Made by a program: the position numbers and the translations under genes. Below are positions 6,321 to 40,639 of a stretch of 64,000 bases of DNA, in pieces. The notes beneath the pieces were generated by a model. It did not search any database and had not been told where the DNA came from. It saw nothing but the letters and a program-made list of their open reading frames with translations. This DNA comes from Thermoactinospora rubra (GTDB lineage: Bacteria; Actinomycetota; Actinomycetes; Streptosporangiales; Streptosporangiaceae): positions 187,088 to 251,087 of the forward strand of contig NZ_KZ084328.1 of the NCBI RefSeq assembly GCF_002093975.1, in the 5' to 3' direction. Each line of letters opens with the position of its first letter. Position 1 is the first letter of the stretch.

Positions 6321-6337
6321 TCGCCAGGCCCGTCCCC

Positions 6338-6346: not shown

Positions 6347-6379
6347 TGACCATATAGGAAAGTATCGAAGGGAGACATC

Positions 6380-22418: not shown

Positions 22419-22434
22419 ATTGAAACGTTCTTCA
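22419..22434. promoter_or_regulatory. LacI-type operator before CE7 esterase
   Basis: ATTGAAACGTTCTTCA has a central ACGT with nearly symmetric arms. It lies directly upstream of the esterase ribosome binding site and is one of seven similar sites in the RG-I and rhamnose region. Confidence 0.6.
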
Positions 22435-22545
22435 CCGTCGCGGTCGGGCGGACGCCGTCGTCAAGAGCCCGCTCACCAAGGCAGAGTCCCATTGTGGCGA
22501 TCAACGCGCCGCCGCACAAGGAGAGGGGTCTTGCGCGGCCTTCGC

Positions 22546-22559
22546 TAAGAACGTTTTAA
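22546..22559. promoter_or_regulatory. LacI-type operator before second GH42 gene
   Basis: TAAGAACGTTTTAA is a near palindrome around ACGT, 64 bases before the GH42 start in the gap shared with the esterase gene. Confidence 0.6.
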
Positions 22560-22622
22560 TCCCCGTAACGCGCGCCCGACACCGGGGCGCCCGCGGATGT
22601 GCGTCGACCCCGGGGAGGGGCA

Positions 22623-24572
22623 TTGATCGTCTACGGCGGCGACTGGAATCCCGAGCAGTGGCCCGAGGAGGTCTGGGCCGAGGACGTCGCGCTGATGCGC
22701 GAGGCCGGCGTGAACCGGGTCAGCGTCGGGATCTTCTCCTGGTCCCGGCTGGAGCCCGTGGAGGGCGTCTTCGAGTTCGGCTGGCTGGACCGGTGCCTGG
22801 ACCTGCTGGCCGCGGGCGGCGTCCAGGCGTGCCTGGCCACGCCCACCGCCGCGCCGCCGCCGTGGTTCGGCCACACCTACCCGGAGGCGCTGCCCGTCGA
22901 CGCCGACGGCCGGACCCTCCACCACGGCAGCCGGCAGGCGTTCTGCCCCAGCTCGCCGATCTACCGGGAGAAGGCGCTGCGCGTCGCCGAGCAGGTCGCC
23001 CGCCGCTACGCGGGCCATCCGGCGCTGGCGATCTGGCACGTGCACAACGAGTACGGCTGCCACAACGCCCGCTGCTACTGCGACACCTCGGCGGCGGCCT
23101 TCCGGGCGTGGCTGCGGGAGCGCTACGGGACGCTGGAGGCCCTCAACGACGCATGGGGCACCGACTTCTGGTCCCAGCGCTACGGCGACTGGGAGCAGAT
23201 CCTGCCGCCGCGCGCCACGCCCACCTTCGTCAACCCCGGCCAGCAGCTGGATTTCCGCCGCTTCAGCTCCGACGCCCTGCTCGACCTCTACCGCGCCGAG
23301 CGCGACCTGCTGGCCGAGATCACCCCGGACGTGCCCGCGACCACGAACCTGATGGCCGGCATGCACTGGGACATGGACTACTTCTCCTTCGGCCCCGAGC
23401 TGGACGTGATCGCCTCCGACCACTACCTGATCGGCGATGACCCGCACGTCCACCTGGCCTTCTCCGCCGACCTGGCCCGCTCGCTGGGCGGGGGCCGGCC
23501 GTGGGTGCTGATGGAGCACTCCACCAGCGCGGTCAACTGGCAGGGCCACAACCGCGCCAAGCGACCCGGCGAGATGCGCCGCAACTCCATCCAGCACCTC
23601 GCCAGGGGCGCCGACGCGATCATGTTCTTCCAGTGGCGCGCCTCCCGCGCCGGGGCCGAGAAGTGGCACTCGGGCATGGTGCCGCACGCCGGGAAGGACA
23701 CCAAGATCTGGCGCGAGGTCGTCGAGCTGGGCGCGCTGCTGAAGGGCCTGGCCGAGGTCGCTGGCAGCACGGTCGCCGCCGAGGCCGCCGTCCTGCTGGA
23801 CTACGCCAGTATCTGGGCCCAGGACCACCCCGCCCAGCCGACCTCGAACCTGCGGCCGCTGGAGGTCGTCACCGAGTGGTACGGCAAGCTCTGGGAGCTC
23901 GGCGTCACCTGCGACGTCGTCCACCCCGAGAGCGACCTGTCCGGCTACCGCCTGGTGGTCGTCCCCTCCCTCTACCTGGTCAGCGACGCGGGCGCGGCCA
24001 ACCTCGAGCGCTTCACGGCGGCCGGGGGCGTCGCGCTGGTCGGGCCGTACAGCGGGATCGTCGACGAGCACGACCGCGTACGGCTGGGCGGCTACCCGGG
24101 CGCCTGGCGCGACCTGCTCGGCGTGACGGTCGAGGAGTTCTTCCCCCTCGCCGCCGGCGAGCGCGTCGAACTGTCGGGCGGCGGCGCCGGGACGGTCTGG
24201 AGCGAGGTCGCGCACGCCACCACCGCCAAGGTCCTGGACACCTACCTCACCGGCGAGCCGGCCTGGACCCGCAACACGTGGGGCGAGGGCGCCGCGCACT
24301 ACCTGACCACCCTGCTCCACGGCGACGACCTGCGCCGCGTGGTGGCCGAGGTCTGCGCGGAGGCGGGCGTCGGCACCTCCGCCACCCCGGGCCTGGAGGT
24401 GGTACGGCGGGCGCACCCCGACGGCCGCCGCTACCTGTTCGCGATCAACCACACCGGCGCCGAGGCCACCGTGGCGGCCACCGGCGTCGCCCTGCCCGAC
24501 GGCACCCCGGTGGAGGGCCGCCTCACGGTCCCCGCCGGAGCCGTCGCGATCGTCCGCGAGACCGCGCCGTGA
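22623..24572 (+). CDS. GH42 beta-galactosidase (second copy, RG-I linked)
   Basis: 649-residue cytoplasmic beta-galactosidase. TTG 22623 is preferred over GTG 22599 because GGGGAGGGG precedes it and the protein then begins IVYGGDWNPEQWPEE. The acid/base is Glu143 in HVHNEYG and the nucleophile Glu298 in VLMEHST. The N-terminal 350 residues closely resemble the first GH42 (18500-20344), but the C-terminal part is longer and differs. A LacI-type operator precedes it and a LacI gene follows. In Bacillus subtilis the rhamnogalacturonan cluster has the GH42 enzyme YesZ, and this copy is a likely counterpart, releasing galactose from RG-I side chains. Confidence 0.92.
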   Translation: MIVYGGDWNPEQWPEEVWAEDVALMREAGVNRVSVGIFSWSRLEPVEGVFEFGWLDRCLDLLAAGGVQACLATPTAAPPPWFGHTYPEALPVDADGRTLHHGSRQAFCPSSPIYREKALRVAEQVARRYAGHPALAIWHVHNEYGCHNARCYCDTSAAAFRAWLRERYGTLEALNDAWGTDFWSQRYGDWEQILPPRATPTFVNPGQQLDFRRFSSDALLDLYRAERDLLAEITPDVPATTNLMAGMHWDMDYFSFGPELDVIASDHYLIGDDPHVHLAFSADLARSLGGGRPWVLMEHSTSAVNWQGHNRAKRPGEMRRNSIQHLARGADAIMFFQWRASRAGAEKWHSGMVPHAGKDTKIWREVVELGALLKGLAEVAGSTVAAEAAVLLDYASIWAQDHPAQPTSNLRPLEVVTEWYGKLWELGVTCDVVHPESDLSGYRLVVVPSLYLVSDAGAANLERFTAAGGVALVGPYSGIVDEHDRVRLGGYPGAWRDLLGVTVEEFFPLAAGERVELSGGGAGTVWSEVAHATTAKVLDTYLTGEPAWTRNTWGEGAAHYLTTLLHGDDLRRVVAEVCAEAGVGTSATPGLEVVRRAHPDGRRYLFAINHTGAEATVAATGVALPDGTPVEGRLTVPAGAVAIVRETAP

Positions 24573-24611
24573 GCAGCGGGGAGGACCCATGCCCGCGCCA
24601 GCCCGTGCTAC

Positions 24612-24624
24612 TGAGACGTTTCAA
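24612..24624. promoter_or_regulatory. LacI-type operator before second LacI gene
   Basis: TGAGACGTTTCAA is a near palindrome 64 bases before the regulator start, with a weaker half-like site GGAACGTTAAG at 24634-24644. The position suggests self-regulation. Confidence 0.6.
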
Positions 24625-24688
24625 TTCGATGGCCGGAACGTTAAGATGAGGCACCCTTTCGGCGGCAGCGACACCTTCACGAGGGACG

Positions 24689-25708
24689 ATGGCCAATCCC
24701 AGCATCAAGGAGGTCGCGCAGCGTGCCGGCGTCTCCGTCGGCACGGTGAGCAACGTCCTCAACCGGCCCTGGATCGTGGCACCGCGCACCCGGCAGCGGG
24801 TCCAGGACACCATTCGCGAGCTGGGTTTCGTCCGCAACGAGGCGGCCCGGCACCTGCGCGCGGGCCGGAGCAGGACGGTGGGGCTGGTCGTGCTGGACGT
24901 GGCCAACCCGTTCTTCATCGACGTCGCCCGGGGCGCCGAGGCGCTGGCGGACGAGCACGACACGATGGTGGTGCTGTGCAACAGCGACGGCGACCCGCAC
25001 CGGGAGGGCCGCCACCTGGACCAGCTGGAGCAGCAGCGCGTGATGGGGATCCTCATCACGCCGGTGCGCACCGACAGCCCGCGGCTGCGCTCGCTGGTGG
25101 CCAGGGGCACGCCGGTGGTGCTGGTGGACCGCGCCGCCGCGCACGGCGGCCGCTGCTCGGTGTCGGTGGACGACCGGCTCGGTGGCCGCCTGGCCGGGAC
25201 GCACCTGGTCGAGCGGGGGCACCGCCGCATCGCCTTCGTCGGCGGCCCGCTGTCCATCCAGCAGGTGGCCGACCGGCTGGCGGGCGTCACCGCCGCCGTC
25301 GAGGAGGCGGGCGGGGTGTCGCTGGAGACCCTGGAGATGCCCACGCTGAGCGTCGCCGCGGGCCGCGCGGCGGGCGAGCGGATCGCCGCCCTGCCCGACG
25401 CCTCGCGCCCCACGGCCGTCTTCTGCGGCAACGACCTGCTCGCGCTGGGCTTCCTGCAGGCGATGGCCGCGCAGGGGCTGCGCGTCCCGCACGACATGGC
25501 CATCGTCGGCTACGACGACATCGACTTCGCGGCGGCCGCCGCAGTCCCCCTGTCGTCGGTGCGCCAGCCGCGCGAGCTGCTCGGGCGCACAGCGATGGAG
25601 CTGCTGCAGGAGGAGGTCGAGGACCCGGGCGCGCACCGGCACCGGCAGGTCATCTTCCAGCCGGACCTGGTCGTGCGCGAGTCCAGCGACCTGACCCGGG
25701 CCGACTGA
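24689..25708 (+). CDS. LacI-family transcriptional regulator (second copy)
   Basis: 339-residue repressor, ATG 24689. The helix-turn-helix (SIKEVAQRAGVSVGTVSNVLNRP, about residues 4-26), hinge helix (NEAARHLRAG) and effector domain (NPFFIDVARG, GILITPVRTDS, GYDDIDFAAA) are complete. It sits between the second GH42 gene and the DUF1961 gene, with an operator-like site in its own leader. It is the best local candidate to bind the seven TTGAAACGTTTCAA-like sites spread over 22.4-40.6 kb, sensing an RG-I- or rhamnose-derived sugar. The ligand and the division of work with the first LacI copy are unknown. Confidence 0.93.
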   Translation: MANPSIKEVAQRAGVSVGTVSNVLNRPWIVAPRTRQRVQDTIRELGFVRNEAARHLRAGRSRTVGLVVLDVANPFFIDVARGAEALADEHDTMVVLCNSDGDPHREGRHLDQLEQQRVMGILITPVRTDSPRLRSLVARGTPVVLVDRAAAHGGRCSVSVDDRLGGRLAGTHLVERGHRRIAFVGGPLSIQQVADRLAGVTAAVEEAGGVSLETLEMPTLSVAAGRAAGERIAALPDASRPTAVFCGNDLLALGFLQAMAAQGLRVPHDMAIVGYDDIDFAAAAAVPLSSVRQPRELLGRTAMELLQEEVEDPGAHRHRQVIFQPDLVVRESSDLTRAD

Positions 25709-25752
25709 CCGCACCCCGACCGCATCGAGACGGCGCCGAGAAAGACGGCCGC

Positions 25753-26382
25753 ATGACCTATCACAACCCCCTGAGCTCCCCCTCCGACGTGGAGGGCTTC
25801 CGCATGGAGGGCGCCGGCGCGCTCTCCTTCCCCATGGGCAGGATGCGCCTGGAGAGCCTGCGCCCGCCCGAGGACGGGCAGGAGGCCAACATCGTGCTGT
25901 GGTGCCCGGAGGACTTCCCGGCCGACGTGACGGTGGAGTGGGACTTCTGGCCCATTCGCGAGCCCGGCCTGTGCATCCTGTTCTTCCACGCCCGCGGCAG
26001 GAACGGCGAGGACCTGTTCGACCTGAAACCCCGGACGGGCCCCTACGAGCAATACCACCACGGCGACCTGGACGCCTATCACGTGTCCTATTTCCGCCGC
26101 ATGTGGCCCTCGGAACGCCGCCTGCACACCTGCAACCTGCGCAAGAGCTACGGCTTCCACCTGGTCGCGCAGGGCCCAGACCCGCTGCCCGCGGCGCTGG
26201 ACGCGCAGGGTCCCTACGCCATGCGCCTGACCGTCCGCGGGGGCGAGATCACCTTCGCCGTCAACGATTTGGTCTCGTTTCAATGGCGGGACGATAATCC
26301 GCTGACCGGCGGCAAGATCGGATTTCGCCAGATGGCGCCCATGATTGGCGAATACGCGAATCTCCGCGTCACGCGCCATTGA
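25753..26382 (+). CDS. DUF1961 (YesU-like) protein
   Basis: 209-residue protein with no signal peptide or membrane segment. ATG 25753. The pattern EWDFWPIREPGLCILFFHARGRNGEDLFD, many aromatic residues, and GGKIGFRQMAPMIGEYANLRV at the end fit the concanavalin-like beta-sandwich of DUF1961. YesU of Bacillus subtilis, in the rhamnogalacturonan cluster, belongs to that family. Its role is not known; sugar binding or modification of an RG-I product is a reasonable guess. It follows the LacI gene by 44 bases and precedes the importer operon. Confidence 0.8.
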   Translation: MTYHNPLSSPSDVEGFRMEGAGALSFPMGRMRLESLRPPEDGQEANIVLWCPEDFPADVTVEWDFWPIREPGLCILFFHARGRNGEDLFDLKPRTGPYEQYHHGDLDAYHVSYFRRMWPSERRLHTCNLRKSYGFHLVAQGPDPLPAALDAQGPYAMRLTVRGGEITFAVNDLVSFQWRDDNPLTGGKIGFRQMAPMIGEYANLRVTRH

Positions 26383-26384
26383 CT

Positions 26385-26398
26385 TTGAGACGATTCAA
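26385..26398. promoter_or_regulatory. LacI-type operator before importer operon
   Basis: TTGAGACGATTCAA is nearly palindromic and starts two bases after the DUF1961 stop. About 110 bases of leader follow before the DUF624 gene, so a promoter for the importer operon probably lies here. Confidence 0.6.
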
Positions 26399-26506
26399 CA
26401 CTACGGTCACAGCAACCGTTCGCCGTTCACCCGCTTGTAACAAGGCAGGAACTCCGGTGCAACTCCCCGTCCCCGCACTCGCGCTCCGCCTGAACGGCGG
26501 CCCGCG

Positions 26507-27127
26507 ATGACGTCGGCCGCCTGGTCGATCAGGCTCTACAACGCCTGCGACCAGCTGCTCTGGGCGATCAGGCTGAACCTGCTGTGGATCGCGTTCACCC
26601 TGCTGGGCGGCGTGGTCCTCGGCCTCGGCCCCGCCACCGTCGCGGCCTACACGCTGGCCCGTCGGCACGCCAGGGGTGAATCGTTTCAGGTCTGGACCGA
26701 ATTCGCCCGCGCCTACCGGCGGGAGTTCGTCCGCGGCTCACTGCTGGTGCTGCCGCTGACGGCGACCGGCGTCCTCCTGGTCGGCAACCTGCTGTACTTC
26801 ACCGCCCAGGGGATGACCGCGCTGCGACTGACGACCTACGTCGCGCTCGCGGCGCTGGTCGTCGTGGCGGCCTACCTGCTGCCCATGTACGTTCACTACG
26901 ACCTCCGGGTAAGCGCTTACCTGCCCAAGGCGTCGCTGTTCGCGCTCACCCGCCCCGCGTCCTCGATCCTGCTGCTGTTCGCGTTCGTGGCGATCGCTCA
27001 CACGGTCGAGGCCTTCCCGATCCTGGCCCCGACGGTGGCCGCCGGCGCCTGGATCCAGCTGAACACCTGGCTCTGCCTGCGCTTCTTCGAGGAGAACGAG
27101 GCTCGCCTGCACGCGAAAGGCAACTGA
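26507..27127 (+). CDS. DUF624 (YesV-like) membrane protein
   Basis: 206-residue integral membrane protein with about four to five hydrophobic segments (roughly 27-48, 75-97, 104-127, 142-161, 168-184). ATG 26507. It belongs to the DUF624/YesV type that accompanies LplABC-like importers and pectin genes in Bacillus. Its exact role in transport is unknown. The stop TGA overlaps the start of the next gene (TGATG), which indicates coupling to the binding protein. A perfect palindrome, GGTAAGCGCTTACC, lies inside the gene at 26908-26921. Confidence 0.85.
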   Translation: MTSAAWSIRLYNACDQLLWAIRLNLLWIAFTLLGGVVLGLGPATVAAYTLARRHARGESFQVWTEFARAYRREFVRGSLLVLPLTATGVLLVGNLLYFTAQGMTALRLTTYVALAALVVVAAYLLPMYVHYDLRVSAYLPKASLFALTRPASSILLLFAFVAIAHTVEAFPILAPTVAAGAWIQLNTWLCLRFFEENEARLHAKGN

Positions 27128-28677
27128 TGAAGACAACCCCCCGTCGGCTCCTGGCCGGTGTGTTGACGCTGACAACCGCATTGCTCGCGACCGCCTGCGG
27201 CAGCGACGGCGGCGGTGGCGGCCAGGCGGCGAGCAACGAACTGACCCTGATGGTCAAGCTCTTCGGCGCCGCGCCCTCCCCCAGCGGCGAGATGCACAAG
27301 GCCGTGGAGAAGCTGACCGGCAAGAAGCTCAACATCACCTGGGTGCCGGACGCGGACTACAACGAGAAGACCAACGTCACCCTCGCCTCCGACAAGCTGC
27401 CCGACCTCATGGTCGTCAACCCCAAGAACGCCTCGTTCGCGAAGGCTGCCGAGGCCGGGGCCTTCTGGGACCTCACCGACAAGATCAAGAATTACCCGAA
27501 CCTGCCCAAGGACCCCCGGATCCTGGCCAACTCCTCCACCAACGGGAAGAACTACGGCATCTACCGGGTCCGCCCGCTGCTGCGCTCCGCCATCGTGCTG
27601 CGCAAGGACTGGCTGGAGAAGCTGGGCCTGAAGGAGCCGGAGACCACCGAGGACCTCTACGAGATCGCCAAGGCCTTCACCGAGAAGGACCCCGACGGCA
27701 ACGGCAAGAAGGACACCTACGGCCTGATCCTGCCGAAGTGGCCCTCCCCGCAGTTCAACGCCTCCAGCCCGTACAACGCGATCGACGTGTGGTTCGGCGC
27801 CCCGAACGGCTTCCAGATGCGCGACGGCAAGCTCGTGCCCGAGTTCGACGCCCCGGAGTTCTGGGAGGCGCAGAAGTACATCAAGAAGTTCATCGACGAG
27901 GGCCTGGTCAACCCCGACTGGGCGACGCTCGACACCGCCAAGTGGAACGACCCGTTCGTCCAGGGCAAGGGCGGCATCATCATCGACGTCAACGTGCGGG
28001 CGCAGCAGCTGTTCGACCTGTTCAAGCAGCAGGACCCGAAGGGCTACATGCACAAGGTGACGATCGCCGGCAACCTCAAGCGGCCCGACGGCCAGAAGTT
28101 CTCCCTGCCGTTCACCGGCTACAACGACGTCATCGCCGTCTCCAAGCAGAACATCCGCACCGAGCAGCAGCTCGACGACGTGCTGAAGATGATGGACAAG
28201 CTCGCCTCCAAGGAGGGCGCGGTCCTGCTGACCAACGGCATCGAGGGCAAGAACTTCAAGGTCGAGGACGGCAAGGCCGTCAAGATCAACGACCAGGACC
28301 CGGCCGTCCAGACCATCAACAACGACGTCGAGAAGGGCTTCATCCAGCTCGGCACCACCGCCAGCGTCGGCGTCTCGGGCGGCACGGGCTACGACTGGAA
28401 GCGCCAGACGCCCCAGGAGCAGGCGATCGAGGACAAGAAGAACCAGCTGGCCGAGCTCGACCTGCAGACCGCGGTGCACGACCCGACCCTGCCGTACATC
28501 TCCAAGACCGCGGTGGAGAAGGGAGCCACGCTGAACCCGATCCCCACCGACGCGCGGATCAAGCACCTGGCCGGTGAGATCACCGAGGAGCAGTTCAAGG
28601 CCGAGATCAAGCGCTGGTACGACAGCGGCGGCACCCAGATGCTGGCCGAGTTCCAGGAACTGATCAACAAGGGCTGA
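27127..28677 (+). CDS. ABC transporter substrate-binding lipoprotein, LplA/YtcQ type
   Basis: 516-residue extracellular lipoprotein. The signal peptide ends in a lipobox (LLATAC, Cys24) and a Gly-rich linker. NELTLMVKLFG, WVPDADYNEKTNVTLASDKLPDLM and the length of over 500 residues mark the LplA/YtcQ group that binds large uronate-containing oligosaccharides. The insert DPDGNGKKDTYG (about residues 190-201) is a DxDxNxxxD calcium-type loop common in this group. It is followed by a 16-bp hairpin and then the two permease genes. In this setting its cargo is most likely unsaturated RG-I oligosaccharides. Confidence 0.9.
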   Translation: MKTTPRRLLAGVLTLTTALLATACGSDGGGGGQAASNELTLMVKLFGAAPSPSGEMHKAVEKLTGKKLNITWVPDADYNEKTNVTLASDKLPDLMVVNPKNASFAKAAEAGAFWDLTDKIKNYPNLPKDPRILANSSTNGKNYGIYRVRPLLRSAIVLRKDWLEKLGLKEPETTEDLYEIAKAFTEKDPDGNGKKDTYGLILPKWPSPQFNASSPYNAIDVWFGAPNGFQMRDGKLVPEFDAPEFWEAQKYIKKFIDEGLVNPDWATLDTAKWNDPFVQGKGGIIIDVNVRAQQLFDLFKQQDPKGYMHKVTIAGNLKRPDGQKFSLPFTGYNDVIAVSKQNIRTEQQLDDVLKMMDKLASKEGAVLLTNGIEGKNFKVEDGKAVKINDQDPAVQTINNDVEKGFIQLGTTASVGVSGGTGYDWKRQTPQEQAIEDKKNQLAELDLQTAVHDPTLPYISKTAVEKGATLNPIPTDARIKHLAGEITEEQFKAEIKRWYDSGGTQMLAEFQELINKG

Positions 28678-28692
28678 CGGCCCCGGCAAGCC

Positions 28693-28729
28693 GTGGTCCT
28701 CAAGGGACGAGCAGTCCCTTGAGGACCAC
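28693..28729 (+). terminator. intra-operon hairpin between binding protein and permeases
   Basis: A perfect 16-bp stem (GTGGTCCTCAAGGGAC with GTCCCTTGAGGACCAC) with a 5-nt loop. It lies between the lipoprotein stop and the permease ribosome binding site. It has no T tract. Such hairpins often give more binding protein than permease by partial termination or by mRNA protection. Confidence 0.65.
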
Positions 28730-28748
28730 CGTGAGAAAGGAGGCCGCC

Positions 28749-29720
28749 ATGGCCACGGACCTCGCATCGGCGCCCGCCAAGGCGGCCACCAAGCCTCCAC
28801 GCAGACGGGCCGGGTCCTCGCCGCTGGCCAAGCTCGTGCGCCACCGCTGGCTGCTGCTGATGCTCCTGCCCGGCCTGGCCTACTTCGCGATCTTCAGGTA
28901 CTGGCCGATGTACGGCCTGACCATCGCGTTCAAGGACTTCGTGCCGTTCCTCGGCATCGAGGGCAGCGAATGGGTGGGCCTGAAGCACTTCGAGGCGCTG
29001 TTCACCGGGCCGGACTTCGGCCGCCTGATGACCAACACCCTCGTCATCGCGCTGCTGATGATCCTGTTCGCCTTCCCGGCGCCGATCATCGTCGCGCTCA
29101 TGCTCAACGAGCTGAGGGTGCGCTTCGTCAAGCGCACGGTCCAGTCGCTCATCTACATCCCCCACTTCCTGTCCTGGACCATCGTCGCGTCGCTGACGTA
29201 TCTGCTGTTCTCCGTCGACTACGGGGTGATCGCCGGCTGGATCCACGCGATCACCGGCGGGCAGAAGATCGACTACGTCGCCCAGGAGGAGTGGTTCCGG
29301 CCGATCATCATGCTGCAGACGCTCTGGAAGAGCACCGGCTGGGGCACGATCATCTACCTGGCCGCGCTGGCCGGGGTGAACCCCGACCTGTACGAGGCGG
29401 CCCGCATGGACGGCGCCGGGCGCTGGCGGCAGTTCTGGCACGTCACGCTGCCCGCCATCCGGCCCACCATCGTCGTCATGGCCATCCTCACCTCCGGCAA
29501 CCTGCTCGACCAGAGCTTCGAGCAGTTCTGGCTGATGCGGAACTCGCTCAACGCCGACGTCGCCGACGTGTTCGACACCTTCGTCTACTACGTCGGCATC
29601 ACGCAGGGCGGCTACAGCTACGCCACCGCCGTCGGCCTGTTCAAGGGCGTCGCCGGGCTGGTGCTCATCTTCGGCTGCAACTGGCTGGCCAAGCGCCTCG
29701 GCCAGCGGGGCCTGTTCTAA
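28749..29720 (+). CDS. ABC transporter permease, LplB type
   Basis: 323-residue permease with six membrane segments. ATG 28749 is chosen because GAAAGGAGG lies six bases before it; an upstream GTG (28719) would be inside the hairpin arm. YWPMYGLTIAFKDF and WVGLKHFEALF are typical of the LplB group. The EAA loop reads DLYEAARMDGAGRWRQFWHV. It pairs with the next gene to form the membrane channel. Confidence 0.92.
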   Translation: MATDLASAPAKAATKPPRRRAGSSPLAKLVRHRWLLLMLLPGLAYFAIFRYWPMYGLTIAFKDFVPFLGIEGSEWVGLKHFEALFTGPDFGRLMTNTLVIALLMILFAFPAPIIVALMLNELRVRFVKRTVQSLIYIPHFLSWTIVASLTYLLFSVDYGVIAGWIHAITGGQKIDYVAQEEWFRPIIMLQTLWKSTGWGTIIYLAALAGVNPDLYEAARMDGAGRWRQFWHVTLPAIRPTIVVMAILTSGNLLDQSFEQFWLMRNSLNADVADVFDTFVYYVGITQGGYSYATAVGLFKGVAGLVLIFGCNWLAKRLGQRGLF

Positions 29721-29730
29721 GGAGGGGCGC

Positions 29731-30648
29731 GTGTCGATCGACCTGACCTCGAAGAAGCTGGCGGAGGCACCCGCCACGGTACGCAACTACGGCTCCTGGG
29801 GAAGCCGGCTGTTCGACGCGTTCAACGTCGCGTTCCTCGTCGGTCTGGCGCTCATCACCGTCCTGCCGCTGATGTACGTGCTGGCCGGGTCCTTCGCCAC
29901 CGAGGCGGAGATCTCCTCCAGGCCGTTCTTCCTGTGGCCGGAGCAGTTCGTCACCAGCACCTACGACTACATCTTCGGCACCCCCACCTTCGTCCGGGCG
30001 CTGGTCACCACGGTCTGCGTGACGGCGGTCGGCACGGTGGTGCAGGTGCTGCTGACGCTCACCATGGCCTACCCGCTGTCCAAGCGGCAACTCCCCGGCA
30101 GGACGCTGGTGCTGAACCTGGTGATCTTCACGATCGTGTTCAGCGGCGGCATGATCCCGACCTACCTCGTGGTGCGCGACCTGGGCCTGCTCGACAGCTA
30201 CTGGGCGCTGATCCTGCCGCTCGCGATCAACCCCTTCTACCTGATCATCGTCAAGAGCTTCTTCCAGGAGCTGCCGCAGGCCCTGGAGGAGGCCGCCCGC
30301 ATCGACGGCTGCACCGAGCTGGGCGTCTTCCGGCGGATCGTGCTGCCCCTGTCCAAGCCGATCATCGCCACGTTCTCGCTCTTCTACGCGGTGGGCATCT
30401 GGAACGACTACATGTCGCCGCTGCTGTACATCAACGACAACTCCAAGTGGACCCTCCAGGTGCTGGTCCGCATGCTCACCAGCCCCGCCGCCGAGCGGTC
30501 GGTGACCGCCTTCGACTCGGTCCTGTTCCCCGAGCAGGGCATCAAGTTCGCCGTCGTGGTCGTCGCGACGCTGCCGATCCTGCTGGTCTACCCGTTCCTG
30601 CAGAAGCACTTCGCCAAGGGCGTCCTGATCGGGTCGGTGAAGGAATGA
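29731..30648 (+). CDS. ABC transporter permease, LplC/YtcP type
   Basis: 305-residue second permease. GTG 29731 with AAGGAGG seven bases upstream. Six membrane segments; MIPTYLVVRDLGLLDSYWALILP and the EAA loop ALEEAARIDGCTELGVFRRI are family marks, and the C-terminus (LQKHFAKGVLIGSVKE) is typical. The stop TGA overlaps the next ATG (ATGA), so the exo-lyase-like enzyme is coupled to the importer. No ATPase gene is present in the window. Confidence 0.92.
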   Translation: MSIDLTSKKLAEAPATVRNYGSWGSRLFDAFNVAFLVGLALITVLPLMYVLAGSFATEAEISSRPFFLWPEQFVTSTYDYIFGTPTFVRALVTTVCVTAVGTVVQVLLTLTMAYPLSKRQLPGRTLVLNLVIFTIVFSGGMIPTYLVVRDLGLLDSYWALILPLAINPFYLIIVKSFFQELPQALEEAARIDGCTELGVFRRIVLPLSKPIIATFSLFYAVGIWNDYMSPLLYINDNSKWTLQVLVRMLTSPAAERSVTAFDSVLFPEQGIKFAVVVVATLPILLVYPFLQKHFAKGVLIGSVKE

Positions 30649-33167: not shown

Positions 33168-33173
33168 TCCCGC

Positions 33174-35861
33174 GTGGAACTCACCCGACGTGAAGTGTTA
33201 GCCGGAATGGCCGCCATCCCCCTCGTGTCGATGCTCGAAGGCCAGGCCGGAGCCGCGGCGGCAGCCGTACCGGAGGTCAAGCTCACCTGGCTCGAAGGCA
33301 GGCCGGGCACCTCCGCCGTCTCCACCTGGGGCACCCCCTGGCCCAAGGGCGCGGTGCCCGAGGACCAGTCCTTCGCGCTCGCCGACGGCACCCCGGTGCA
33401 GAGCTGGCCGCTGGCCTACTGGCCCGACGGGTCGCTGAAGTGGACCGCGCACGCCATCGCCGCCGACACGCCCGCCGAGTCCTACACGCTCACCGCCGGA
33501 ACGCCGGCCGCGCCCGCCCGGCCGGTGACGGTCAAGGACGAGAAGAACTACGTGGACGTCGACACCGGCGTCATCCGGGCGCGCATCCGCAAGGACGGCA
33601 AGGAGCTCATCAGCCAGATCTGGCGCGGCGACGTCGAGATCGCCCGCAAGGGCCACCTCGTCAACCTCAAGCAAGACAAGATCGACGAGGACGAGGAGAG
33701 CACGACCGTCCTGGACCGCTACGAGAGCGACATCGGCAAGGTCACGGTCGAGCAGTCCGGGCCGGTGCGCGCGGTGGTCAGGATCGAGGGCCGCCACACC
33801 GGCAAGAAGGGCAGGTCCTGGCTGCCGTTCACCGTGCGGCTGTACTTCTACGCGGGCGCCGAGTCGATCCGCATGACGCACACCTTCGTCTACGACCGCG
33901 ACGGGCGGCACGACTTCATCGCCGGGCTCGGCGTGCGGTTCCGGGTGCCGATGCGGGACGCGACGTATGACCGGCACGTCCGCTTCGTCGGCGAGGGCCA
34001 CGGCATGCTGGCCGAGGCCGTCAAGGGCATCACCGGGCTGCGCCGCGACCCGGGCGCCGCCGTGCGCGCCGCGCAGATCGCGAGCGCCAAGCTGCCCGAC
34101 CCCGCCACCTGGGACCAGCGGGTCACCACGCGCCTGCAGTACATCCCCGAGTGGGGCGACTACTCGCTCAGCCAGCTGTCGTCGGAGGGCTTCACGCTGC
34201 GCAAGAGGACCAAGAAGGGCCACGGCTGGATCCCGGTCGACCAGGGCAGGCGGGCCTCCGGCCTGGGCTACGTGGGCGGCGTCGGCGGCGGGCTGGCCTT
34301 CGGGCTGCGCGACTTCTGGCAGCGCCACCCCACGCAGCTGGACGTGCGGGGCGCGCACACCGAGGAGGCCGAGGTCACCGTCTGGCTCTGGTCGCCCGAG
34401 GCCGGGCCGATGGACCTGCGCTTCTACCACGACGGCATGGGCCAGGACACCTACCCCGAGCAGCTCCAGGGCCTGGAGATCACCTACGAGGACTACGAGC
34501 CCGGCTTCGGCACGCCGTACGGCATCGCCAGGACCAGCGAGCTGATGTTCTGGGCGCTGGCGGGGACCCCCTCGGCCGAACGGCTGGGCGCGATGGCCGA
34601 CCAGGTGCGCACGCCCCCGCAGCTGATCAACCCGGTCGGGCACCTGGTGGCGGCCAAGGTGTTCGGCGGCCTGTTCGCGCCCGTGGACCGCTCGCACCCG
34701 GTCAAGAAGCAGATCGAGGACCACCTCGACTTCCAGTTCGCCTTCTACCAGGCCCAGGTGGAGGAACGGCACTGGTACGGCTTCTGGGACTACGGCGACA
34801 TCATGCACAGCTACGACGAGGACCGGAAGGTCTGGCGCTACGACGTCGGCGGCTACGCCTGGGACAACTCCGAGCTGTCGCCCGACCTGTGGCTGTGGTA
34901 TCAGTACCTGCGCACCGGCCGGGCCGACGTCTACCGCCTCGCCGAGGCGATGACCCGCCACACCGGCGAGGTGGACGTCTACCACATCGGGCCGTGGAAG
35001 GGCCTGGGCACCCGGCACGGCGTGCAGCACTGGGCCGACAGCGCCAAGCAGCAGCGCATCTCCACCGCGATCTACCGGCGCTTCCACTACTACCTGACCG
35101 CCGACGAGCGCACCGGCGACCTGCTGCACGAGGTGGCCGACTCGGAGAAGACCTTCCTGGTGCTGGACCCGATCAGGAAGATCCGCACCGAGCCGTACAC
35201 CCCCGATCCCAAGGCGCTGGCCATCGGCCTGGGCACCTCCTGGAGCGGCCTGGCGGCCGGGTGGTTCACCGAGTGGGAGCGGAACGGGCCGCTGGCCGAG
35301 CAGTGCAAGCGCAACCTGCTGGGGACCATGGAGTCCATCGCCGCGCTGCCCAACGGCTTCATCCAGGGCGAGGCGCTGTACAACATGGAGACCGGCCGCT
35401 ACGCGCCGGACACCGCCAAGGTCAGCGTCAGCCACCTGTCGGCCATGTTCGGGCTGGTGGAGATCTGCGCCGAGCTCATCGACGCGATCGACATGCCCGC
35501 CTTCGAGCAGAAGTGGCTGCAGTACTGCCGGCTCTACAACGCCACCCGGGCCGAGCAGACCGCCGAGGTCGGTAAGCACTTCGGCAACCTCATCCTCAAG
35601 CAGGGGCACACGCGGCTGGACGCCTACGCGGCCGTGCGGCTCAAGGACGACAAGTACGCCGCGCGGGCCTGGCAGATCTTCCTCAAGCCGCCGGAGGCCT
35701 GGGAGTACGCCCACACCCGGGACTGGTCGGCGCAGAAGGTGGACAGCACGCTGAACCCGTCCTCGCACGCGCCGTGGATCTCCACCAACTCCACCGCGCT
35801 GTTCGGGCTGGCGGCCATCCAGAACCTCGCCCTGATCGGCGACAAGCTGCCCGCCGCCTGA
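33174..35861 (+). CDS. exo-rhamnogalacturonan lyase-like protein, exported copy
   Basis: 895-residue paralogue of the preceding protein. GTG 33174, with its GGAGG overlapping the stop region of the gene before. The N-terminus MELTRREVLAGMAAIPLV has a twin-arginine-like motif (TRREVL) and a hydrophobic core ending GAAAAAV, so it is probably exported by Tat. The catalytic part repeats the same blocks: WGTPWPKGAV, WPDGSLKWTAHAIA, VRLYFYAGAESIRMTHTFVYD, WYGFWDYGDIMHSY and YDVGGYAWDNSELSPDLWLWYQ. The pair would let the cell use the same reaction outside and inside. A strong hairpin ends the operon straight after. Confidence 0.72.
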   Translation: MELTRREVLAGMAAIPLVSMLEGQAGAAAAAVPEVKLTWLEGRPGTSAVSTWGTPWPKGAVPEDQSFALADGTPVQSWPLAYWPDGSLKWTAHAIAADTPAESYTLTAGTPAAPARPVTVKDEKNYVDVDTGVIRARIRKDGKELISQIWRGDVEIARKGHLVNLKQDKIDEDEESTTVLDRYESDIGKVTVEQSGPVRAVVRIEGRHTGKKGRSWLPFTVRLYFYAGAESIRMTHTFVYDRDGRHDFIAGLGVRFRVPMRDATYDRHVRFVGEGHGMLAEAVKGITGLRRDPGAAVRAAQIASAKLPDPATWDQRVTTRLQYIPEWGDYSLSQLSSEGFTLRKRTKKGHGWIPVDQGRRASGLGYVGGVGGGLAFGLRDFWQRHPTQLDVRGAHTEEAEVTVWLWSPEAGPMDLRFYHDGMGQDTYPEQLQGLEITYEDYEPGFGTPYGIARTSELMFWALAGTPSAERLGAMADQVRTPPQLINPVGHLVAAKVFGGLFAPVDRSHPVKKQIEDHLDFQFAFYQAQVEERHWYGFWDYGDIMHSYDEDRKVWRYDVGGYAWDNSELSPDLWLWYQYLRTGRADVYRLAEAMTRHTGEVDVYHIGPWKGLGTRHGVQHWADSAKQQRISTAIYRRFHYYLTADERTGDLLHEVADSEKTFLVLDPIRKIRTEPYTPDPKALAIGLGTSWSGLAAGWFTEWERNGPLAEQCKRNLLGTMESIAALPNGFIQGEALYNMETGRYAPDTAKVSVSHLSAMFGLVEICAELIDAIDMPAFEQKWLQYCRLYNATRAEQTAEVGKHFGNLILKQGHTRLDAYAAVRLKDDKYAARAWQIFLKPPEAWEYAHTRDWSAQKVDSTLNPSSHAPWISTNSTALFGLAAIQNLALIGDKLPAA

Positions 35862-35864
35862 GCC

Positions 35865-35906
35865 GCGGGCGCCGGGCGGTCCCGCCCACGTCCGCCCGGC
35901 GCCCGC
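35865..35906 (+). terminator. hairpin terminator of the importer/exo-lyase operon
   Basis: A perfect 15-bp stem (GCGGGCGCCGGGCGG with CCGCCCGGCGCCCGC) and 12-nt loop start three bases after the exo-lyase stop. Confidence 0.75.
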
Positions 35907-35926
35907 CCGCCCCGCCTGGAGACCCC

Positions 35927-36239: not shown

Positions 36240-36248
36240 AAGTTTCAC
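36236..36248. promoter_or_regulatory. perfect inverted repeat before PL11 gene
   Basis: GTGAAA-G-TTTCAC is a perfect 13-base palindrome at the end of the esterase pseudogene, about 110 bases before the PL11 start. Its core GAAAGTTTC is the same as before the GH10 gene. Confidence 0.4.
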
Positions 36249-36320
36249 GTTCTAAAGGACATCGTCCCTGATGAAACAGCCTTAAGTCAGCGGGATATGG
36301 CGCCATGGAGGCCTCTCTGA

Positions 36321-36334
36321 TTAAAACGTATTAA
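36321..36334. promoter_or_regulatory. LacI-type operator before PL11 gene
   Basis: TTAAAACGTATTAA is nearly palindromic and ends 22 bases before the PL11 start codon, next to the ribosome binding site GAAGGGA. Confidence 0.6.
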
Positions 36335-36356
36335 CCAACCTGCGAAGGGATTTGTG

Positions 36357-38597
36357 ATGCGCTTACGAATCCTCAGCGCGACGGCCGTCCTGGCGATGGC
36401 CGGGACGCTGACCTGCGCGCCACCGGGCGTCGCCCAGGCCGCGCCGACGCGCTACGAGGCCGAACAGGCACCCGCCACCTGCGACGGCGTGGTGGAGTCC
36501 AACCACGCCGGATACTCGGGGACGGGATTCTGCAACGGGACCAACGCCGTCGGCGCGGCCGTGCAGTTCACGGTGAACGCCGCCGCCGCGGGCACCGCCA
36601 CGCTCGCCGTCCGCTACGCCAACGGCACCACCACGACCCGGCCCGCCGACATCGTGGTCAACGGGACGGTCGTGCAGGCGGCCACCCCGTTCGACGCCAC
36701 GGGCGCCTGGACCACGTGGGCCACCAAGACGCTGACCGCGCCGCTGAACGCGGGCGGCAACACCGTCAGGATCGTCCCCACGAGCGCCGCCGGGCTGCCC
36801 AACATCGACTACCTCGACGTCGAGGCGGGCGGGGCGGCCGAGTCCGGCCGCCAGGTCGAGGACCTCGACCGGGGCCTGATCAGCGTGCGCTCCGGCACCG
36901 GCAACCTGGTCTCCTGGCGGCTGCTGGCCACCGACCCCGACAACGTCTCCTTCAACGTCTACCGTGGCTCGACCAGGATCGCGACGGTCACGAACTCCAC
37001 GAACCACCTCGACTCCGGCGCGGCGGCCGACGCCTCCTACACGGTCAGGGCCGTGGTGAACGGCGTCGAGCAGGCCGCCTCCGAGCCGTCGCTCCGCTTC
37101 ACCGGCGGCGACCACCTCGACGTGCCCATCCAGCGGCCCTCCGGCGGCACCACGCCCGACGGGGCCTCCTACACCTACAGCGCGGGCGACGCCAGCGCAG
37201 GCGACCTGGACGGCGACGGCCGGCTGGAGATCGTGCTGAAGTGGGATCCGTCCAACGCCAAGGACAACTCCCAGTCCGGCTACACCGGCAACGTCTTCGT
37301 CGACGCCTACCGCCTCGACGGCACCCGCCTGTGGCGCATCGACCTCGGCCGCAACATCCGCGCGGGCGCCCACTACACGCAGTTCCAGGTCTACGACTAC
37401 GACGGCGACGGCCGCGCCGAGGTGGCCATGAAGACCGCCGACGGCACCCGATCCGGCACCGGCCAGGTCATCGGCAGCGCCTCCGCCGACCACCGCAACT
37501 CCAGCGGCTACATCCTCACCGGGCCCGAGTACCTGACCATGTTCCGCGGCACCGACGGCGCCGTCCTGTCCACGGTGAACTACCTTCCGGCGCGCGGCAA
37601 CGTGTCGTCGTGGGGCGACAGCTACGGCAACCGCGTCGACCGCTTCCTCGCGGCCACCGCCTACCTCGACGGCCGGCGGCCCTCGCTGATCATGGCTCGC
37701 GGCTACTACACCCGGGCCGTCGTCGTGGCCTGGGACTTCCGCAACGGCACGCTCACGCACCGCTGGACCTACGACTCCGGCAACAGCGGCGGCGCCTACG
37801 GCCAGGGCAACCACAACCTGTCCGTCGCCGACGTCGACGCCGACGGCCGCGACGAGATCGTGTACGGCTCGGCCACGATCGACGACAACGGGGCGCTCAT
37901 GTACGCCACGGGCTTCGGCCACGGCGACGCGATGCACGTGGGCGACCTGATCCCGGCGCGGTCCGGCCTGGAGGTGTTCACCATCCACGAGAGCGGCAGC
38001 TCGCCCGCCGCCGACGTGCACGACGCGCGCACCGGCCAGATCATCTGGCAGCGGCCCGGCAACGGCGGCTCCGAGGGCCCCGGCCGCGGCGTCGCGGGCG
38101 ACATCCACGCCGGCAGCCCCGGCGCGGAGTTCTGGGGCGCGGGCACCCAGATGACCAGCCTGTTCAACACCTCAGGCGCGGCCATCGGCCGCACCCCGTC
38201 CTCGGCCAACTTCCTGGCCTGGTGGGACGCCGACCCGGTCCGCGAGCTGCTCGACGGCAACCACGTCGACAAGTACGGCACCGGCGGCGACACGCGGCTG
38301 CTGACCGGCTCCGGCGCGCACTCGATCAACGGCACCAAGGCCACGCCTTCCCTGTCCGGCGACCTGTTCGGCGACTGGCGGGAGGAGATCATCCTGCCGC
38401 GCGACGGCGAGGGCGCGCTGCGCATCTACGCCACCACCGTGCCGACCGACCGGCGCATCTGGACGCTGCTGCACGACACGCAGTACCGGGTCGCGATCGC
38501 CTGGCAGAACACCGCCTACAACCAGCCGCCGCATCCCAGCTTCTTCCTGGGGAACGGCATGTCCGCACCGCCTCGGCCCAACGTCTACGTCCGCTGA
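36357..38597 (+). CDS. secreted PL11 rhamnogalacturonan lyase with N-terminal CBM35-like domain
   Basis: 746-residue endo-lyase that cuts the RG-I backbone outside the cell by beta-elimination. ATG 36357 (or GTG 36354), with GAAGGGA upstream. Signal peptide about 1-29 (ending GVAQA). A CBM35/6-like domain (about 31-158: YEAEQAPATCDG to NIDYLDVEAGG) is followed by a linker and a PL11 domain (about 163-746) that begins RQVEDLDRGLISVRSGTGNLVSWRLL. The DLDGDGRLEIVLKWDPSNAKDN and YDYDGDGRAEVAMKTADGT motifs are the calcium-binding repeats of the PL11 beta-propeller, and AWQNTAYNQPPHPSFFLGNGM ends the family. This is the only intact PL11 gene here; a second one survives as a chimeric pseudogene at 39149-40474. 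Confidence 0.95.
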   Translation: MRLRILSATAVLAMAGTLTCAPPGVAQAAPTRYEAEQAPATCDGVVESNHAGYSGTGFCNGTNAVGAAVQFTVNAAAAGTATLAVRYANGTTTTRPADIVVNGTVVQAATPFDATGAWTTWATKTLTAPLNAGGNTVRIVPTSAAGLPNIDYLDVEAGGAAESGRQVEDLDRGLISVRSGTGNLVSWRLLATDPDNVSFNVYRGSTRIATVTNSTNHLDSGAAADASYTVRAVVNGVEQAASEPSLRFTGGDHLDVPIQRPSGGTTPDGASYTYSAGDASAGDLDGDGRLEIVLKWDPSNAKDNSQSGYTGNVFVDAYRLDGTRLWRIDLGRNIRAGAHYTQFQVYDYDGDGRAEVAMKTADGTRSGTGQVIGSASADHRNSSGYILTGPEYLTMFRGTDGAVLSTVNYLPARGNVSSWGDSYGNRVDRFLAATAYLDGRRPSLIMARGYYTRAVVVAWDFRNGTLTHRWTYDSGNSGGAYGQGNHNLSVADVDADGRDEIVYGSATIDDNGALMYATGFGHGDAMHVGDLIPARSGLEVFTIHESGSSPAADVHDARTGQIIWQRPGNGGSEGPGRGVAGDIHAGSPGAEFWGAGTQMTSLFNTSGAAIGRTPSSANFLAWWDADPVRELLDGNHVDKYGTGGDTRLLTGSGAHSINGTKATPSLSGDLFGDWREEIILPRDGEGALRIYATTVPTDRRIWTLLHDTQYRVAIAWQNTAYNQPPHPSFFLGNGMSAPPRPNVYVR

Positions 38598-38645
38598 CCT
38601 GAGGCCTTTCTCGCGCTTGGTGCTGGGCCTTCGGCGCATGAGAAC

Positions 38646-38680
38646 GGCGCGGCTCCCGCCGCAGTGGCGGGAGCCGCGCC
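38646..38680. terminator. hairpin terminator between PL11 and coiled-coil genes
   Basis: A perfect 15-bp stem (GGCGCGGCTCCCGCC with GGCGGGAGCCGCGCC) with a 5-nt loop sits between convergent genes. Confidence 0.75.
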
Positions 38681-38694
38681 GCATGGGCTTGCCG

Positions 38695-39012
38695 TCAGGC
38701 GGGGAGCCGCCGCTGGATGTCGATCAGGACGCCCATGACATCCGTCTTGAACTCCCGGATGTCGGCCTTGACGTCATACATCTCGGTCTTGACCTCGTGC
38801 ACCTCGGCCTTGACCTCGTCGACCTTGGTGTCAAGGCTGGTGACCTTGGCGTCAAGGCTGGTGACCTTGGCGTCAAGCGCCTTGACCTCGTTGGCGACGC
38901 CGTTGACCCGCTCGGTGAGCCGCTGGCCCAGTTCCATCTGATCGGCGCGGATCTGGATCAGCTCGTTCTCGACCGCCGTCGCGAAACGCATGGCCGCCTC
39001 TTTGATCCCCAC
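38695..39012 (-). CDS. small coiled-coil protein of unknown function
   Basis: 105 residues, ATG 39012 with GGAGGTTCC upstream. The first 40 residues (AMRFATAVENELIQIRADQMELGQRL) look amphipathic. Residues about 38-95 are a long coiled coil of seven-residue repeats (ALDAKVTSLDAKVTSLDTKVDEVKAEVHEVKTEM). The DNA of these repeats is itself repeated every 21 bases, so the coil grew by copying heptads. No family name is recognised. It stands alone between PL11 and the RGAE-PL11 pseudogene and need not belong to the pectin system. Confidence 0.65.
   Translation of the reverse strand: MGIKEAAMRFATAVENELIQIRADQMELGQRLTERVNGVANEVKALDAKVTSLDAKVTSLDTKVDEVKAEVHEVKTEMYDVKADIREFKTDVMGVLIDIQRRLPA
38821..38883. 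repeat. 21-base tandem repeat coding for coiled-coil heptads
   Basis: Three units of the form GACCTTGG(T/C)GTCAAG start at 38821, 38842 and 38863. The first two differ by one base and the third diverges at its end. Twenty-one bases equal one heptad of the encoded coil. Confidence 0.75.
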
Positions 39013-39101
39013 GGAACCTCCCGTACGGTTGTCGTACGGGACCTGGGTGGTAAGCGCACTCAGGTCCCTCCGCTGTACCTAGAGTAACCGACGTGCCACG
39101 A

Positions 39102-39137
39102 CCGATGGGGAAGGATCAAGAGATCCTCCCCCATCGG
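39102..39137. terminator. hairpin downstream of the RGAE-PL11 pseudogene
   Basis: CCGATGGGG then AGGATC pair with GATCCT then CCCCATCGG, with one mismatch in the stem and a 4-base loop. It lies 12 bases past the pseudogene stop and would end its transcript. Confidence 0.6.
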
Positions 39138-39148
39138 CCAAGAAGCGG

Positions 39149-40474
39149 TCAGCGCACGTCATGCCCGCGCGCGTAACGAATGCGTGGCTTCTCGGGCGCC
39201 GTCATCCCCGTCCCCAGGTAGAACCCGGGATGCGGCAGCTGGTTGTAGCCGACGTTCTGCCAGGCGACGCCCAGCCGGTACACCGGGTCGTGCATGAGTG
39301 TGCGAAGCCGCGCGCCGCGTCGTAGTCGTGGTCGACGATCTCCCGCAGCAGGTCGCCGTCCCACCAGGCGAGGAAGTTCGCGGGCGGGATCGCGGTGCCG
39401 ATAGGCGAACCGGACGCCGAGCGCAGCTCGCCCTGGCCGGAGTTCCACTCGCCGGTCGCGGTCACGGCCCAGCCCTCGGCGCCCGGGTGGCGCGGGTCGA
39501 CGTCGCCGGAGGCGGCCCGCCCGGTGTCCTTGGCAGCGGGCAGCGACCACAGCACCGCGCCCGTGGCCGCGTCGCGGAAGGTCGCGCCCCGGTTGCCGCT
39601 GCTGCCCATGTCCTCGTGCGCGGCGAACACCTCATAGCCCGGCCGGGCCGGGTCCAGGTCGCCGACGGTGTCGAGCGCCTTGCCGGTGACCCCTCGAAGA
39701 CCGTGAGGTACTCGGGGCCGCTCAGCACGTACCCGCCGGAGTTGCGGTGGTCGCGGCTCGGGTTGCCGATGACCGCGCCCGTGCCGTCCACGGTGCCGTC
39801 GGCGGTCTTCATCATCACCTCCTTGTAGTCGGCCGGGGAGGCGTACCGGTCGGGCACGCTGACGGTGGCGTCGTTGTGGCCGAACTGGATGAGGAAGGAG
39901 TCGCCGGGCCTGATGAGGCGCAGGATCTCGTCCAGGCGGCCCTGGGTGAGGAAGTTCTTCGAGCTGCGCCCGCCGATGGCGTGGTTGTCGAAGGCCACGC
40001 CGGTGGTGAGGAACCGCTCGATCATCTGGCCCCATCCGGCCTCGGGCGCCCAGGAGGGTCGTAGGTCTGCACGGTGGAGTCGCCCGCGAGGTAGGCCGTG
40101 GGGACGGTGCCGGGGGCGCGTTGCGCCTGCCGTACCACGACCAGGGAGTTGATCTTCGGGGCGGCGCCGGAGAAGGCGAGGTCCAGCCGGCCGTCCACGA
40201 GCGCGATGGCGAAGGACATCTCCAGGTGCTCGCCTGGGGGCTTGGCCGTGGGCTGGACCTTCTGGATCGACTCGGCGGCGATCGCGATGTCGGTGGCCTC
40301 GGCGGCGTCGCCCGCGACGAGGGAGACGGTGTAGTCGCCGGTGGGCAGGTCGAGGCTGAAGGTGGCGCAGGCGGCGGTGACGAAGTCGAAGGCCCACCGG
40401 GTCTGGTCGGCGAGCGCGCGACTGGGCGTTATCGCTGACAGCACGAGGACGAGGGCGGCGAGGATGCGTGGCAT
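39149..40474 (-). pseudogene. chimeric pseudogene: rhamnogalacturonan acetylesterase fused to PL11 lyase
   Basis: Read from ATG 40474, frame 1 gives a signal peptide, a beta domain and the SGNH start AYLAGDSTVQTYDP. The frame then shifts near 40060 and continues WAPEAGWGQMIERF, NHAIGGRSSKNF and FLIQFGHND, all acetylesterase blocks. At about 39818 the protein jumps in frame from ADYKE to VMMKTADGTVDGTGAVIG, which is the PL11 propeller. More PL11 pieces follow in two further frames (DLDPARPGYEVFAAHE, PPANFLAWWDGD, then DPVYRLGVAWQNVGYNQLPHPGFYLGTGM). There are thus at least three frame changes and several internal deletions. It probably arose from adjacent esterase and lyase genes collapsed by deletion. 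An operator-like site still stands before it. Confidence 0.8.
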
Positions 40475-40516
40475 GGGGGGTTCCCGTTCCGGTCCGTTCT
40501 GGTACGGCAGGGCACC

Positions 40517-40530
40517 TTAAAACGTGTGAA
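40517..40530. promoter_or_regulatory. LacI-type operator before the chimeric pseudogene
   Basis: TTAAAACGTGTGAA, a less symmetric member of the site family, lies 43 bases before the pseudogene start in the 186-bp gap shared with the rhamnose operon. Confidence 0.5.
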
Positions 40531-40625
40531 TCACTTCACCGCCAGACCCTTCGCGCGTCGGGCGGAACTCGCCCGTCCAGGCATTGACGCGGTGCCGTGC
40601 CCCCTCTACTCTCGCTGCTAGCCTA

Positions 40626-40639
40626 TTAAAACGTTTTGC
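40626..40639. promoter_or_regulatory. LacI-type operator before the rhamnose operon
   Basis: TTAAAACGTTTTGC, with the perfect core AAAACGTTTT, ends 21 bases before the mutarotase start codon. This places the rhamnose genes under the same control as the RG-I genes. Confidence 0.65.

Follow-up and report, generated by a model that had tools for sequence, protein, structure and literature searches.

Two paralogous LacI-family repressors with separate operator classes as the probable basis of rhamnose and rhamnogalacturonan I control in Thermoactinospora rubra

Regulons of LacI-type RhaR proteins that join rhamnose catabolism with rhamnose-oligosaccharide genes have been predicted for Actinomycetales, and that account describes the sites of LacI-family regulons as 20-bp palindromes (Rodionova, 2013; PMC3870299). 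Here we consider a locus from Thermoactinospora rubra, lying in a 64,000-nucleotide stretch of contig NZ_KZ084328.1 (hereafter the window, whose positions serve as coordinates throughout), in which seven near-palindromic sites accompany genes for the use of rhamnose and rhamnogalacturonan I (RG-I). The locus belongs to this already known LacI-type RhaR kind and seems to depart from it in the single shared regulator: the seven sites are very probably the operators of two paralogous LacI-family repressors, with LacI-2 reading one class of sites (class A) and LacI-1 the other (class B). This split is most likely a lineage-specific departure from a known bacterial rhamnose control system, and has probably divided what was one RhaR-type regulon into an arm for import and another for catabolism and lyases.

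As described in that source, the Actinomycetales RhaR systems share with this locus a LacI regulator, palindromic sites, the pairing of rhamnose catabolism with rhamnose-oligosaccharide uptake, and regulons that include a rhaEW-type aldolase/dehydrogenase and an ABC importer; however, one regulator serves both functions there, whereas here there are seemingly two paralogs with distinct operators, and the PL11, GH42, and CE7 genes would fall under the diverged one (PMC3870299). The RhiR (Rhizobiales) and RhmR (Chloroflexus) systems likewise have a separate LacI protein for the genes of rhamnogalacturonide or rhamnose-oligosaccharide use, next to a second rhamnose regulator, but the latter is of the DeoR family there, while both are LacI proteins here (PMC3870299). 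Both window proteins are of the LacI family (HTH plus Peripla_BP), the regulator lies near rha in the case of the LacI-1 orthologs, sites precede the rha operon (40517 and 40626), and LacI-2-like proteins also occur beside rhaI in other families; by operator class, the importer does not share the rha regulator, being class A with rha class B in both the window and the genus. The Bacillus system governed by RhgR, which is not known to be a LacI protein, shares YesL- and YesU-like genes (identified here by Pfam domains, and which we take to correspond to the Bacillus yes genes), an importer, and rhamnogalacturonan lyases. It differs in that rhamnogalacturonan control is exerted by RhgR beside a separate RhaR, as given in PMC3870299. 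Among the open-licence PMC texts listed by literature searches, those on Nonomuraea with rhamnose and LacI and on LacI paralogs with rhamnogalacturonan included, there was no paper on a two-LacI split of rhamnose control.

An initial annotation of this DNA had treated the seven sites as one type of operator with a central ACG core. By direct reading of the sequence all seven are found within 1 base, two of them beginning one base off (22420 and 24611), and both the core and their occurrence far above chance hold; the shared consensus itself averages two operator classes. When up to 3 mismatches are allowed, the single consensus TTGAAACGTTTCAA has five matches in the window against 0.12 expected, namely 24611 and 26385 (2 mismatches each), 36321 and 40517 (3 each), and a coding match at 26676; the remaining three sites are more than 3 mismatches away, and none of the seven is closer than 2. 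As a pattern for scanning the genome it was dropped, with 25 places versus 14 in the control at 3 mismatches, and this weak genome-wide enrichment, together with the distance of at least 2 mismatches at every site, was the first hint that the single consensus is a mixture of two motifs. The operators split into class A, TTGAGWCGATTCAA (24611 and 26385), and class B, ATTAAAACGTTTTAAT (22420, 22546, 36321, 40517, and 40626). When up to 3 mismatches are tolerated, the 8.2-Mb genome has exactly four matches to ATTAAAACGTTTTAAT, each of them one of the seven sites, against 0 for the reversed-pattern control, and the exact class A motif is present as a single copy, at 26385. The two classes, their gene partners, and their conservation were demonstrated by computation.

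Two symmetrised matrices trained on relatives only recover the same division. Matrix A derives from the regular-expression matches of loci L001-L038 and L040, which gave 27 distinct class A sites, and matrix B from all occurrences of TTAAAACG in L107-L126, which gave 40 distinct class B sites. Over the approximately 64,000 window positions, matrix A places 26385 first (28.4 bits) and 24611 second (23.7), followed by 36321 (16.4) and the coding match at 26676 (13.9), and matrix B gives its top five ranks to 36321, 22546, 40626, 40517, and 22420 (31.6 to 21.6 bits, the last two scoring 22.5 and 21.6), followed by the class A sites (17.2 and 13.6) and 36242 (11.5). The last of these is a weak class B-like site near background, 79 bases upstream of 36321 and before PL11. 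The upstream regions of the cellulase-type, GH31, and GH95 genes hold no comparable score among the top-ranked positions (best 9.2 bits at 6355, before GH10, versus 21.6 for the weakest class B site), which agrees with the earlier statement that no site precedes them. A run of four plant-wall hydrolase genes at 307-7996 (GH48, GH9, GH5, and GH10, with CBM2 on the last three) has no class A or B site at an operator-like score with either matrix. Downstream of every site lies a transcription unit, viz., CE7-lacI1 on the minus strand (22420), GH42 (22546), LacI-2 (24611), the YesL-like gene with the ABC importer (26385), PL11 (36321), and rhaM (40517 and 40626); together these sites take in the importer and enzymes for RG-I as well as rhamnose catabolism, and the LacI gene at 24689 has its own class A site at 24611. 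The features are as follows, with operators given without strand.

20373..21383, minus strand: LacI-1, rha-type repressor and proposed class B reader (Pfam LacI and Peripla_BP; RhaR by position in relatives)
21436..22404, minus strand: CE7-type acetyl esterase gene (Pfam AXE1), first of a probable CE7-lacI1 operon with a gap of about 50 bp
22420..22433: operator 1, class B, hybrid, before CE7-lacI1 (matrix B rank 5)
22546..22559: operator 2, class B, before GH42 (matrix B rank 2; own-genome scan), with the same side and orientation as the GH42b promoter sites of relatives
22599..24572, plus strand: GH42 beta-galactosidase gene (Pfam)
24611..24624: operator 3, class A, before LacI-2 (matrix A rank 2; same position in relatives)
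24689..25708, plus strand: LacI-2, canonical RhaR-type, proposed class A reader (Pfam LacI and Peripla_BP; tree)
25753..26382, plus strand: DUF1961 (YesU-like) gene downstream of LacI-2 (Pfam DUF1961)
26385..26398: operator 4, class A, before the importer operon (exact TTGAGACGATTCAA; matrix A rank 1)
26507..30648, plus strand: DUF624 (YesL-like) gene, solute-binding protein, and two permeases, a probable oligosaccharide ABC importer (Pfam)
30645-33167 and 33174-35861, plus strand: two PL26-type rhamnogalacturonan lyase genes (Pfam PcRGLX domains)
36321..36334: operator 5, class B, before PL11 (matrix B rank 1; own-genome scan)
36354..38597, plus strand: PL11 rhamnogalacturonan I lyase with CBM35 (Pfam RGL11_C and CBM_35)
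40517..40530: operator 6, class B, distal rha site, with a broken minus-strand esterase-like gene on one side and rhaM on the other (matrix B rank 4)
40584..40612, plus strand: sigma70-like promoter of the rha operon, TTGACG-N17-TACTCT (geometry shared with relatives)
40626..40639: operator 7, class B, proximal rha site, 13 bases after the -10 (matrix B rank 3; conserved before rhaM)
40661-40978, 40996-42141, 42138-44144, and 44141-45544, plus strand: rhaM, rhaI, rhaEW, and rhaB, in that order (Pfam, NCBIfam)

Among 54 same-genus genomes, own included, both LacI proteins are present in 46 and LacI-1 alone in six. The exact class A motif has 81 copies in this sample (control 0), present in exactly the same 46 genomes that have LacI-2, and the other eight have neither the motif nor LacI-2; 43 of the LacI-2 genomes were found by protein search and three (G065, G025, and G018) were added from stretches fetched around class A sites, that is, chosen for having the motif, and the eight motif-free genomes were judged by protein search only. 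Eighty of the 81 copies lie within 1,914 bases of LacI-2, and the last falls on another contig, 733 bases from its start. The form TTGAGACGATTCAA or TTGAGTCGATTCAA recurs upstream of LacI-2 orthologs in the named genomes (mostly Nonomuraea and Kribbella), and with one mismatch allowed there are 77 class A sites in 39 of the 42 named loci, plus two in the window. These stand before LacI-2 and before YesL and nowhere else, save that L016, which has no detected YesL, carries its second site directly behind LacI-2; L025 breaks off short of YesL, with a single site, and L039, L041, and L042, which have more distant LacI proteins, have no class A site at one mismatch. LacI-2 carries V17 and a TTGAG half-site and groups in a tree with rha-adjacent LacI proteins of other families; by these sequence traits it is a canonical actinobacterial RhaR-type protein.

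Class B follows the other repressor. A LacI-1 match is present in 52 of the 54 genomes, own included (best hits in other genomes at 74-86%), and LacI-1 is present near rha in all of 20 fetched rha loci (387 kb), which were selected by rhaI alone. The half-site TTAAAACG has 57 copies in these loci, 56 of them outside matched genes, around lacI-1, rhaB, GH42, and rhaM (L108 and L115 have one each before an unassigned gene), and no copy in the 840 kb of loci L001-L042; reciprocally, the exact class A motif has no copy in the 20 rha loci. The remaining copy lies inside rhaEW of L123, and L163 likewise has a TTAAAACG inside rhaEW. In the first relatives search rhaM was hit in 29 of 30 rha loci (own included), and 22 of these 29 have TTAAAACG within 120 bases upstream of it; the other seven have none within that distance of the rhaM start, and in the three of them for which wider loci were fetched (L108, L115, and L116) they are located at a greater distance, ahead of rhaB. 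A TTGAC-N17/18-TA...T promoter with a class B operator starting 11-14 bases after the -10 is found in 22 of the 30 loci, own included, and several relatives have a distal class B site before rhaM, as at 40517. G008 and G062, the only genomes of the 54 without LacI-1, are also the only ones without a class B match at 3 mismatches, and six genomes without a LacI-2 hit (G009, G032, G029, G022, G003, and G071) retain class B sites at rha. Of the seven sites, two are accounted for by the LacI at 24689, and those of rha, PL11, GH42, and CE7-lacI1 pair with LacI-1 (20373-21383).

The two proteins also differ in sequence, with the recognition helix and the hinge altered in LacI-1. Among sequences more than 70% identical to the respective window protein, residue 17 (E. 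coli LacI numbering) is P in 46 of 46 distinct LacI-1 and V in 41 of 41 distinct LacI-2 sequences, and hinge residues 50, 51, 52, and 54 do not overlap between the two sets; with P17, an HGS-ST hinge, and the TTAAAACG half-site, LacI-1 lies outside the canonical RhaR group. In a class-wide sample of 296 genomes, rhaI was above cut-off in 106, and 60 rha loci were fetched from 58 of these, with five added. A near-complete LacI protein of more than 45% identity occurs in 23 of the 65 loci, 19 being closest to LacI-2 (54-65%) and four to LacI-1 (L191 at 78%; L200, L218, and L237 at 50-53%). Sites of the [AT]TGAAACGATTCA type lie near rhaI in many loci of other families, and other genera of the window's family have A-like and B-like sites mixed at their rha loci. 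In a FastTree phylogeny of 53 chosen LacI proteins (14 LacI-1, 14 LacI-2 or near, 23 rha-adjacent, and two outgroups), the LacI-2 clade (local support 1.0) branches from within the rha-adjacent regulators, and LacI-1 forms a separate clade with L191 from another genus (local support 0.995). Of the rha-adjacent regulators with V or L at residue 17, 18 of 21 have a recognisable upstream site (at least 9 fixed positions of a neutral pattern matched), and all of these have TGA on at least one half, which suggests that residue 17 tracks the operator base, if imperfectly.

Several observations weigh against so clean a partition. L191 and L200, the two P17 regulators outside the genus, have mixed sites, and the window site at 22420 is a hybrid (left half TTG). 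Class B at 3 mismatches has a background in the genus (260 forward versus 53 in the reversed-pattern control) and the listed matches of some genomes (e.g., G015, G032, and G063) are away from rha, so that the concordance of class B with LacI-1 is loose. PL11 was found in 35 of the 54 genomes and its loci were examined at 30 places, own included; the class B half-site is present in only one of the 29 relatives' flanks, and class B control at that position is therefore not generally conserved. The matrices also cross-score: beyond the window values given above, the relatives' class A training sites reach a median of 13.4 and a maximum of 18.3 bits with matrix B, whose weakest own training site has 17.3, and matrix A gives the relatives' class B sites a median of 11.6 bits, a few of them rising to 25.1. 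Four positions at class B sites of L107-L126 reach 20 bits with matrix A, and seven non-class-A positions in L001-L038 (760 kb) reach 18 bits, and none 20, with matrix B. These cross-scores are not negligible, so the repressors may cross-bind. The strongest alternative is that the specificities overlap, each repressor binding its own class tightly and the other weakly, with PL11 or CE7-lacI1 answering both signals: the cross-scores, the third place of 36321 with matrix A right after both class A sites, and the hybrid sites, at 22420 and as TTAAAACGATTCAA before rhaI in L123 and L163 (G003 and G032, both without a LacI-2 hit), would fit it, but the two proteins share neither residue 17 nor the distinguishing hinge residues, and the exact motifs separate cleanly, and we regard it as possible, though doubtful. 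It is quite unlikely that some of the sites, chiefly 22420 and 40517, are AT-rich promoter sequence rather than operators, for although these two are the weakest of class B, both stand about 10 bits above any window position outside the seven sites (next 11.5, at 36242), and the distal site before rhaM recurs in several relatives. Least probable of all is a single regulon in which LacI-2 binds all seven sites: these do share the ACG core and cluster within 18 kb, and a LacI-2-like regulator adjoins rha in other families, with importer genes also present in the case of L247, but the motifs are mutually absent from each other's loci, the rha neighbor in the genus is LacI-1 rather than LacI-2, and class B persists at rha where LacI-2 was not hit.

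The reading with two repressors accordingly replaces that with one; of the earlier proposal that a single repressor ties rhamnose catabolism to RG-I breakdown, co-located LacI-type control stands, but is most likely divided between two LacI proteins with separate operator classes. From the arrangement of sites and genes, we infer the following course of binding, repression, and release. LacI-2 would bind the class A sites of its own promoter and of the importer operon (the YesL-like gene, the ABC importer, and the PL26 lyases), and LacI-1 would bind class B before CE7-lacI1, GH42, PL11, and rhaM-I-EW-B. At the proximal rha operator LacI-1 should block transcription initiation at rhaM, because the operator sits 13 bases after the -10, and a repressor at such a promoter-downstream class B operator would overlap the transcription start. 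The site at 22420 is probably autoregulatory, since CE7 and lacI-1 are about 50 bases apart on one strand, and the sites directly before lacI-1 in some relatives may serve autoregulation. A sugar signal would then free each repressor from its operator. Judging from gene content, the effector of LacI-2 is probably an RG-I oligosaccharide, proposed because of the importer and PL26 lyases, and that of LacI-1 probably L-rhamnose or an early catabolite; if this is true, the cells sense polymer fragments and the monosaccharide separately.

The likeliest history is a duplication or acquisition followed by the splitting of one regulon, with the direction and timing depending on a small tree. L247, where a LacI-2-like regulator stands with both importer and rha genes, resembles the state with a single regulator. 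We lean, with some reserve, towards the view that a single ancestral RhaR regulon was split in the window's family: LacI-1, a diverged paralog with P17 and a rebuilt hinge, took over rhamnose catabolism with a half-site shift from TTGAAACG to TTAAAACG, and LacI-2 kept only the RG-I importer, the two loci having become neighbors in the window with their control unmerged. In the window 3.3 kb separate the genes of LacI-1 and LacI-2; of the 45 same-genus relatives that have both, 13 have them 119-297 kb apart on a single contig and 32, many of which are drafts, have them on different contigs; the joined island may be particular to the window genome, a comparison that draft assemblies limit. The system offers a compact natural case for the possible insulation of paralogous repressors in one pathway, setting few residues against few operator bases, with intermediate lineages available for its study, and supplies two motifs by which the pectin and rhamnose regulons of the window's family can be annotated.

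Beyond rha, 20 stretches were picked among the listed class B-like matches, two of them for nearness to PL11; of the 20, L185 also holds a rhaI piece. In these, sites stand upstream of genes for ABC importers, of a GH42 ortholog, or of PL11-type genes (L171, L181, and L177), and in L176 a class B-like site lies 4.9 kb upstream of PL11; others resemble chance or other LacI motifs, and none of the off-rha sites was counted as a regulon member. A ATTAAAACGTTCGCAT-like site recurs between two divergent genes in five relatives (L171-L175), the pair in L171, the only one for which Pfam assignments were made, coding for a DeoR-family regulator and a sugar-binding protein; it may be one more target of class B or may belong to a different regulator. 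The spacings of paired class B sites (rha promoters of L107-L126 and 40517/40626 in the window) fall into groups of 67-69, 88-90, 98-103, 109, and 135, which suggests helical phasing; the phasing statistic (R 0.71, n=19) is uncorrected for relatedness and was given no weight. Finally, on the minus strand at 38598-40474, a rhamnogalacturonan esterase-like remnant runs into PL11-like pieces across several frames, and probably represents a decayed, deletion-fused gene or assembly errors.

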